DNA from: an uncultured SAR86 cluster bacterium | GTDB lineage: Bacteria > Pseudomonadota > Gammaproteobacteria > Magnimaribacterales > Magnimaribacteraceae | Length of the DNA stretch: 64,000 bases | NCBI GenBank assembly: GCA_902594545.1 | Contig: CACJMO010000002.1 | Span: 1 to 64,000 of the forward strand | Direction of reading: 5' to 3' | Shown: in pieces, positions 42,556 through 46,663 of the stretch | How the letters are laid out: every line of letters begins with the position of its first letter | How positions within the stretch are numbered: position 1 is the first letter of the stretch | Notes under the pieces: generated by a model | Told to the model about the DNA's origin: nothing | Database searches by the model: none | The model's input: only the letters and a program-made list of their open reading frames with translations | Position numbers and translations under genes: made by a program

Positions 42556-42654
42556 AAGGGTCGGCAGTTTAACTCATTGATGTAAAGGGTGGTAGATGAA
42601 ACTTTTGCTGCGCCCAACCAAAAATTAATTTTCAAGTTCCACCTACCATGGAGA

Positions 42655-42711
42655 GCAGGATACAGCTAAATTCAGCTAGTGCAGCTTAAATGGGTGACTA
42701 CTGCATCCTGC
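42655..42711. ncRNA. Long hairpin next to the tandem RNA modules
   Basis: Arms 42655-42665 (GCAGGATACAG) and 42701-42711 (CTGCATCCTGC) pair over 11 positions; the one non-Watson-Crick pair is A-C on the plus strand, G-U on the minus strand. The loop region has three CAGCT or CAGCT-like blocks (42663, 42673, 42682). Just upstream, TACCATGGAGAG (42644-42655) resembles the core of the tandem modules. Strand and role are unresolved. Confidence covers the presence of the structure, not its function. Confidence 0.5.
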
Positions 42712-42716
42712 TTAAG

Positions 42717-42771
42717 AACTGAGGAGTTACCTTGGAGAGGTTTTCTGGGGAGAATTATACGTCTCTCAGTT
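42717..42771. ncRNA. Tandem structured RNA module 1 (three-way junction)
   Basis: Outer stem P1 pairs 42717-42725 with 42762-42771 (one bulged C, one G-U on the plus strand). Inside are two small hairpins: P2, ACCT-TGGAG-AGGT (42729-42741), and P3, TTCT-GGGG-AGAA (42743-42754), leaving ATTATACG before P1 closes. P2, P3 and most junction bases are identical to module 2; the P1 bases differ but still pair. This covariation points to a real RNA fold. It fits no riboswitch or ribozyme core that I know. Confidence 0.62.
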
Positions 42772-42777
42772 TCTAAA

Positions 42778-42845
42778 CAATATCGAGGGAGTTACCTTGG
42801 AGAGGTTTATTTCTGGGGAGAATTTTTTAACGTCCCTTGATATTG
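42778..42845. ncRNA. Tandem structured RNA module 2 (three-way junction)
   Basis: P1 arms 42778-42790 (CAATATCGAGGGA) and 42833-42845 (TCCCTTGATATTG) pair at all 13 positions with one G-U on the plus strand (42785 and 42838); on the minus strand that pair is A-C. P2 is ACCT-TGGAG-AGGT (42794-42806) and P3 TTCT-GGGG-AGAA (42811-42822). A 20-base and a 14-base block are identical with module 1. Together the pair occupies about 130 nt in the divergent gap between a thioesterase and a GST gene. Confidence 0.62.
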
Positions 42846-42851
42846 ATGACA

Positions 42852-45971: not shown

Positions 45972-46048
45972 TGGTCGGGACGGCTGGATTTGAACCAGCG
46001 ACCACCACACCCCCAGTGTGGTGCGCTACCAGACTGCGCCACGCCCCG
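45972..46048 (-). tRNA. tRNA-Pro, anticodon GGG
   Basis: Cloverleaf on the minus strand: acceptor CGGGGCG with CGTCCCG, D-loop with AGTCTGGTAGCG, anticodon stem CCACA/TGTGG with loop CTGGGGG (anticodon GGG, decoding CCC and CCU), T-arm CTGGTTCAAATCCAG, and an encoded 3' CCA (45972-45974). It lies two bases downstream of the merR gene, the position it has in other gammaproteobacteria after ihfA-merR, so it may be cut out of the same transcript. Confidence 0.96.
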
Positions 46049-46049
46049 A

Positions 46050-46373
46050 TTACTTTATGGCTTTTAGAAGAGCCTCAAGATCTTCTATGATTGGTTTCAC
46101 TCTTGTATCGCTATTATCTTCTTTAGTGACCGTGAGTAAATTTCTTTTTGCTCCTGCTATAGTCATTCCATCTTTGTATAAAAGAGATTGAATTTTTTTA
46201 ATTAGAGCGATGTCGGCCTTTTGATAATAACGTCTATTGCCCTTTCTAGTTATAGGCTTTAAATCTTTAAATTCTTTTTCCCAAAATCTCAAAGTGTGCG
46301 GTTTGATATCACAAAGCTCAGAAACTTCAGTAATGGAATAATATTTTTTATATTGGGGAGTATCGTTAGTCAT
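46050..46373 (-). CDS. MerR-family transcriptional regulator
   Basis: 107 residues, an N-terminal winged-helix domain [69 protein letters not shown]. There is no metal-binding C-terminal domain; it ends in a short helical tail. It is the conserved small MerR relative that follows ihfA in many gammaproteobacteria, function unknown. Its start overlaps the ihfA stop by eight bases and its stop is two bases from tRNA-Pro. Confidence 0.87.
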
Positions 46374-46663
46374 GGGATGAAGCTATTTTCTGTCTTAGCT
46401 TATTGCCAGCTCTAAATGTTACGACTCTCCTGGCGCTTATTGTTACATCTTCTCCTGTCTTGGGATTCCTTCCAGGTCTAGCCTTTTTATTGATAAGCTC
46501 AAAATTACCAAAACCAGAAATTTTTACATCTTCATTGTTAATTAAAGATTGCTTAATCTCATCAAAAAAAGTCTTCAACTATCGTTTTACACTCACTTTT
46601 ATTTAAGCCTAACTCTTTATGTAGATGTTCCGTGATATCTGCTTTTGTGATGGTCTTGCTCAT
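46366..46663 (-). pseudogene. ihfA: Integration host factor alpha, frameshifted at a T7 run
   Basis: IHF-alpha bends DNA with IHF-beta. From ATG 46663 (directly after the pheT stop) the frame reads MSKTITKADITEHLHKEL and on to IVEDFF, then hits TGA at codon 34 because of seven T (plus strand A, 46564-46570). Six T would continue as [40 protein letters not shown] and on to the family end, 98 residues in total as expected. The remaining open frame (46366-46578) starts with TTG and would lack the first third. Sequencing or assembly error, a true mutation, or transcriptional slippage at the run could explain this. Confidence 0.82.

Follow-up and report, generated by a model that had tools for sequence, protein, structure and literature searches.

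Introduction

What are the two similar hairpin modules at positions 42717-42845 of a 64,000-nucleotide stretch of DNA from an uncultured SAR86 bacterium (the window): a selected RNA and, if so, encoded on which strand, dependent on which gene and acting on what? In the surface ocean, SAR86 belongs to the most abundant bacterial groups (PMC11582366). The preliminary description of the locus, made from the letters alone, proposed an unrecognised tandem RNA and left its strand open. A conserved small RNA (sRNA) without Hfq or ProQ would show post-transcriptional regulation lacking the standard chaperones in a streamlined gammaproteobacterium. The literature searched, outside which most subscription journals lie, held no prior description of this RNA, and combining SAR86 with sRNA or Hfq retrieved no work on SAR86 small RNAs there; the RNA may have been detected earlier as an unnamed ocean transcript.

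Results

Extent and domains of the element

Identical blocks are indeed shared by the two modules, and the lengths first given for them (20 and 14 bases) were too short: the longer is identical in 21/21 nt (42723-42743 and 42788-42808), the shorter in 15/15 nt (42742-42756 and 42810-42824). The two small hairpins of each module are real, the exact two-hairpin junction being the minimum-energy fold on the minus strand; on the plus strand, the predicted fold merges both small hairpins into one. Both outer stems exist as well, with arms unlike in sequence between the modules and still pairing; the stem 42778-42790/42833-42845 comprises 13 pairs, one of them G-U, as read on the plus strand. The pair of modules folds beyond dinucleotide shuffles (plus z -2.7, minus z -3.0), as does the module at 42776-42846 (plus z -5.3, minus z -4.2); the other module, taken by itself, shows no convincing excess (z -0.8 and -1.5).

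The element at 42717-42845 is thus real, yet covers just the 5' half of a conserved RNA (Table 1), the 5' end of which would lie near 42845, judging from the promoter, and the 3' end of which is approximate. Both sides have changed in 7 of 12 pairs of the third-domain stem and in 7 of 15 pairs of the fourth-domain helix. The 3' domain bears GGUUGGGCG in its loop, and this 3' loop is especially invariant among relatives.

Table 1 Features of the putative small RNA and its promoter in the window. Empty cells, no remark.
Feature	Position	Strand	Basis or remark
Whole small RNA, ~255 nt	42590-42846	minus	conserved as one unit across relatives; model R1 match 42585-42715, minus
Promoter, -35 TATACA, 17 bp, -10 TATAAT	42880-42875 (-35); 42857-42852 (-10)	minus	consensus scan
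Module 1, outer stem 42833-42845 with 42778-42790	42778-42845	minus	minimum-energy fold; outer-stem covariation
Module 1 hairpin UUCU-CCCC-AGAA	42811-42822	minus	
Module 1 hairpin ACCU-CUCCA-AGGU	42794-42806	minus	decayed in three g4 loci
Module 2, outer stem AACUGAG/CUCAGUU	42718-42771	minus	minimum-energy fold
Module 2 hairpin UUCU-CCCC-AGAA	42743-42754	minus	
Module 2 hairpin ACCU-CUCCA-AGGU	42729-42741	minus	
Third domain, 11-12 bp stem GCAGGAUGCAG/CUGUAUCCUGC, loop with invariant CACCC	42655-42711	minus	
Fourth domain, long helix around nearly invariant GGUUGGGCGCAGC (42607-42619)	42591-42648	minus	

Distribution among SAR86 relatives

A search with 211 surrounding bases against the host genome and relatives retrieved a single full locus from the host and, from some two dozen relatives in its genus and family, long matches; all relatives with a taxon name were SAR86 cluster or Gammaproteobacteria. 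Matches on other contigs (Lachnospiraceae, Verrucomicrobia etc.) lacked the RNA context under the filter applied. Two covariance models were then used, R1 for the 3' half and R2 for the form found in a second family (f3). R1 matched 26/35 genomes of family f1 and 13 genomes of f3, R2 matched 36/40 f3 genomes, and both combined placed the RNA in 62/75 genomes of the two families. A lack of homologues with compensating changes had been named in the preliminary description as refuting its proposal. Neither model matched any of the 128 genomes of families f2 and f4. Short-pattern matches in f2, f4 and a few others were rejected, since their context varied and they look like chance. Most genomes are incomplete, so that absence from a single genome means little. 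As a separate observation, three viral contigs (L199, L200, L201) gave matches to a short pattern taken from the C-rich core.

The tandem arrangement holds for the copy in the window and is not essential: two modules occur in genera g1, g4 and g5; one in g2, g7 and every f3 locus read. Three g4 loci show a decayed second loop in module 1 and an intact one in module 2.

The designation as unrecognised stands: Rfam (release 15) yields only a tRNA in the window and no family above the gathering threshold for the RNA; relaxed thresholds, applied to the region and to f1 and f3 relatives, gave chance-level matches only. The RNA is new to this catalogue. 6S RNA (RF00013) was discarded as an identity, a separate 6S gene being present elsewhere in 39/41 SAR86 genomes, the host included.

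Selection on structure

In the 3' half, standard pairs occupy 97.0% of cells against 90.9% in shuffles (0/500 as high); 14 pairs have changed on both sides against 6.1 (0/500 as high) and two-sided cells number 53 against 14.2 (exceeding all 500). Slid structures pair in 33-48%. The f3 form is 99.5% paired, with 47 two-sided cells against 17.9 in shuffles (0/500); its changed pairs (11) lie near the shuffle mean and its further pair types under it, both being expected where two clades dominate. Across 79 distinct modules, the pairing score of a module's own arms is 9.0, compared with 5.6 for arms of modules with other stems and 5.2 for shuffled arms. Kinship of the sequences inflates counts of this sort in all these alignments.

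Covariation is strong in the outer stems, and the C-rich loops that they enclose (UUCU-CCCC-AGAA, CUCUCC) are constant. CUCCC(C) and CUCUCC are unpaired and constant across the 79 modules, few decayed copies excepted, while the stems differ. In f3, CUCUCC is kept though its small hairpin is lost, so the sequence itself seems selected. A selected structured RNA with compensating stems, as first proposed, is well supported by two-sided changes beyond those of shuffles. A kissing interaction CACCC-GGUUGGG was rejected, being broken without compensation in two sequences (L031, L032), and a coding function was set aside, no long conserved open reading frame lying within the RNA.

An ordinary dispersed DNA repeat with random arms had been named as an outcome that would overturn the RNA; folding by chance, with no function as RNA, belongs to the same rival reading. 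Two identical DNA blocks 65-68 bp apart do resemble a repeat; a single conserved syntenic locus across two families and the compensating changes make this reading extremely improbable. Genomes carry the RNA at a single locus, the exceptions being one genome with a second contig copy and a few with weak echoes on the reverse strand.

Strand and transcription unit

The preliminary description had weighed G-U pairs favouring plus against a promoter favouring minus, and of these only the second held. The G-U column of the 13-bp stem varies freely (U-A 6, A-U 6, A-A 5, A-C 1). The sigma70-type promoter is conserved, its position kept and its spacer largely the same in f1 relatives, and intrinsic terminators follow on the same strand in two genera: the second hairpin and then seven T in g12, a strong hairpin and then T-rich tracts in g17. 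The window's family has no clear terminator at the RNA 3' end, and none was seen in the window's copy. On the minus strand, G-U cells outnumber A-C cells 123:5 and 54:0 in two alignments including the 3' domain, the structures of which were predicted on minus, a choice that favours the excess there; the ratio is 7:4 for module 1 alone and 40 against 33 for the outer stems of all modules, neither of which decides the strand. Promoter and terminators agree on minus independently of this excess. The plus-strand reading was rejected, since promoter, terminators, G-U bias and fold all contradict it, and encoding on the minus strand is well supported. As a side observation, the f3 RNA is preceded by repeated TTATAAC motifs (L119, L122-L126, L067-L079), unlike the TATACA-17-TATAAT of f1; a regulator possibly acts at this promoter region.

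The strand bears directly on a CsrB/RsmZ-like sponge, which would be read on plus and expose GGA (UUGGAG, GGGGAG) in its loops for CsrA. GGA does lie within the plus-strand hairpin loops, and CsrA was found in 27/41 genomes, only in f1 and f3, the RNA-bearing families; none turned up in genomes of f2 or f4, of which several are >90% complete. The SAR86 order comprises four families in two pairs (PMC11582366); f1 and f3 are probably one of these pairs, judging from genome counts, so the shared distribution of CsrA and the RNA may go back to one evolutionary event within one clade. It may keep a Csr link possible and does not show one. Against the sponge stand the promoter, terminators and G-U excess on minus and the merging of its hairpins in the plus-strand fold; the loops of the strand judged to be transcribed are CCCC and CUCCA, with no GGA. 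We consider a Csr sponge very unlikely.

Neighbouring genes

The usual neighbour in f1 is a hot-dog thioesterase gene; in f3, it is a photolyase-like gene (the name comes from its N-terminal sequence and not from a family search), beyond which lies a thioesterase-like gene. The same acyl-CoA dehydrogenase gene adjoins both arrangements, which identifies them as the same locus. In several g1 genomes, other genes, e.g. a wzz/rfbB/rfbA-like island, lie between the RNA and the thioesterase gene. In g2, the RNA is preceded by a tRNA, the anticodon of which reads GGG in the sequence, and the gene after the RNA is convergent. Two further observations concern the surroundings: the gap between RNA and thioesterase gene holds differing inserts in L014, L015, L018, L107 and L108, as if it were a genomic-island site; and positions 45975-46578 (minus) of the window hold, one after another, an IHF-like gene, a MerR-like gene and a tRNA, an arrangement found immediately ahead of the RNA in g2.

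A regulator of the thioesterase or glutathione S-transferase (GST) gene had been among the roles first offered. This role finds no support: the GST gene is divergent from the RNA, and downstream genes differ between relatives. A cis-acting, riboswitch-like leader of the gene that follows, thioesterase in f1 or photolyase in f3, would accord with the same-strand orientation of that gene in most f1 and f3 loci and with the ~6 nt that separate the RNA end from the photolyase start in f3 except g17. A leader role may hold in those f3 loci; as a general reading it is unlikely: downstream genes differ within one genus, islands intervene, a -10-like TAAACT/TAAAAT lies directly before the thioesterase ATG, and the g12 and g17 terminators lie ahead of the photolyase gene. 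No fixed position 5' of one gene or pathway was found, the next gene in g2 being convergent. Since downstream genes vary (thioesterase, photolyase, islands, convergent gene), the RNA is not a riboswitch of one gene. Its conserved promoter and variable neighbours are, at the level of sequence, those of a transcription unit of its own; independence from neighbouring genes is well supported, and a standalone small RNA fits best among the roles offered.

Candidate targets

SAR86 genes make use of Shine-Dalgarno (SD) motifs: AGGAG occurs near the start in 43/432 sampled genes, against 13 and 10 in control regions. Ribosome-binding sites in general showed no enrichment over control regions in complementarity to the RNA. 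Individual candidates were ranked among leaders sampled from genome stretches of 200-430 kb.

With 24 nt around the module 2 CCCC hairpin as probe, the host class III CoA-transferase gene (Pfam PF02515) ranked 1st among 432 leaders, with -25.1 kcal/mol against -16.4 for the genuine leader that came next, a rank carrying no correction for the several probes, windows and genomes tried in turn. Its true start is reached only when alternative ATGs are allowed, and it had already been noticed as a BLAST match, so that the ranking is a check and not a blind discovery; a probe made of the whole 5' half puts it fourth. The site consists of 12 contiguous complementary bases spanning SD sequence and start codon, matched in the RNA by the module 2 CCCC hairpin and the bases just 5' of it. 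GGGGAG at this site is kept in 17/19 orthologues read and present in 2/432 first-ATG ribosome-binding sites, a pattern to be expected as well if a strong SD were conserved in its own right. The CoA-transferase gene is the likeliest candidate target.

At 34-46 bases before the start, the proteorhodopsin leaders of genus g12 (L285, L295) carry AUUUAGGAGAGUU, which complements the g12 RNA perfectly over 13 nt; near the ribosome-binding site they have UUUGGGAG, matching the g12-specific CUCCCAAA. Under the same uncorrected ranking, they come 1st of 180 and of 189 leaders with 60 upstream bases, and 7th and 11th with 30 bases; in genome G036, proteorhodopsin ranks 8th or 51st of 361. Proteorhodopsin as a target in all genera was rejected, being no outlier in the f1 genome G004 (rank 90 or 36 of 362). 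We regard this leader as a lead, a second and weaker candidate in one genus.

Discussion

Proposed mode of action

The reading that we hold to be probable, if by no means certain, is a free-standing, trans-acting, multi-domain sRNA, the C-rich loops of which pair with SD regions. The minus-strand RNA would be transcribed from its own promoter. Its working parts would be the C-rich loops (CCCC, CUCUCC), kept open by stems whose sequence can vary freely; the window's lineage carries the loop-bearing domain twice. These loops are predicted to pair with G-rich SD regions (GGGGAG, GGAGAG) of particular mRNAs and could thereby block ribosome binding and switch the messages off, the sign of regulation being inferred; the likeliest first target in the host would be the class III CoA-transferase gene. 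This would proceed without Hfq or ProQ: Hfq was found in 0/61 SAR86 genomes (26 at least 90% complete) and ProQ in 0/41 (19 at least 90% complete), with a positive E. coli control for each.

The loops could instead serve a protein, the C-rich loops and the GGUUGGGCG loop titrating it rather than binding mRNAs. Loop sequences that are almost invariant, the 3' loop above all, and a core present twice, like in sponge RNAs, would suit such a role; there is no protein candidate, and conservation of CUCUCC without its hairpin in f3 fits pairing better than one rigid protein site. We judge titration rather unlikely and retain the pairing sRNA as the preferred reading.

A wider form of the pairing reading would coordinate light and carbon use: a SAR86-specific sRNA, free of Hfq and ProQ, that pairs with proteorhodopsin and CoA-transferase leaders, lies next to a photolyase gene in one family, and has loops that changed together with the g12 proteorhodopsin leader. 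This extension is speculative, and we would give it only a small chance of being right. Named candidate targets make the sRNA idea testable. There is reportedly a SAR86 isolate, HIMB1674.

Comparison with known systems

Tandem riboswitches (glycine, mini-ykkC, glnA) likewise have two similar structured modules in a row; the SAR86 RNA differs from them in having no fixed downstream gene, a terminator in two genera, a variable tandem state and no Rfam match. CsrB and RsmZ are sponge RNAs with repeated small hairpins, and CsrA binds GGA. The SAR86 RNA shares the repeated small hairpins, and its complement shows GGA loops; the strand transcribed here, however, is the C-rich one.

Firmicutes have C-rich sRNAs that bind SD sequences and do so without Hfq (PMC4132741, PMC9410917), and nothing here makes the SAR86 RNA a member of the LhrC, RsaE or IsrR families. 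LhrC of Listeria (PMC4132741) carries multiple redundant CU-rich (UCCC) motifs, both in loops and in single-stranded stretches, blocks the SD and needs no Hfq to regulate lapB, an action comparable to that inferred for the SAR86 RNA. LhrC has 111-114 nt and five gene copies; the SAR86 RNA has one gene of ~255 nt, two loop modules with conserved 3' domains, no Rfam match and a gammaproteobacterial host. IsrR and RsaE of Staphylococcus (PMC9410917, PMC9217828) resemble it in their C-rich single-stranded loop regions, and IsrR acts on SD regions without Hfq, as the SAR86 RNA would; they differ in stem architecture, Firmicutes host and known iron or metabolic triggers, and the SAR86 RNA matches neither in Rfam. 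As far as can be judged by analogy, the SAR86 RNA would work like LhrC, RsaE and IsrR.
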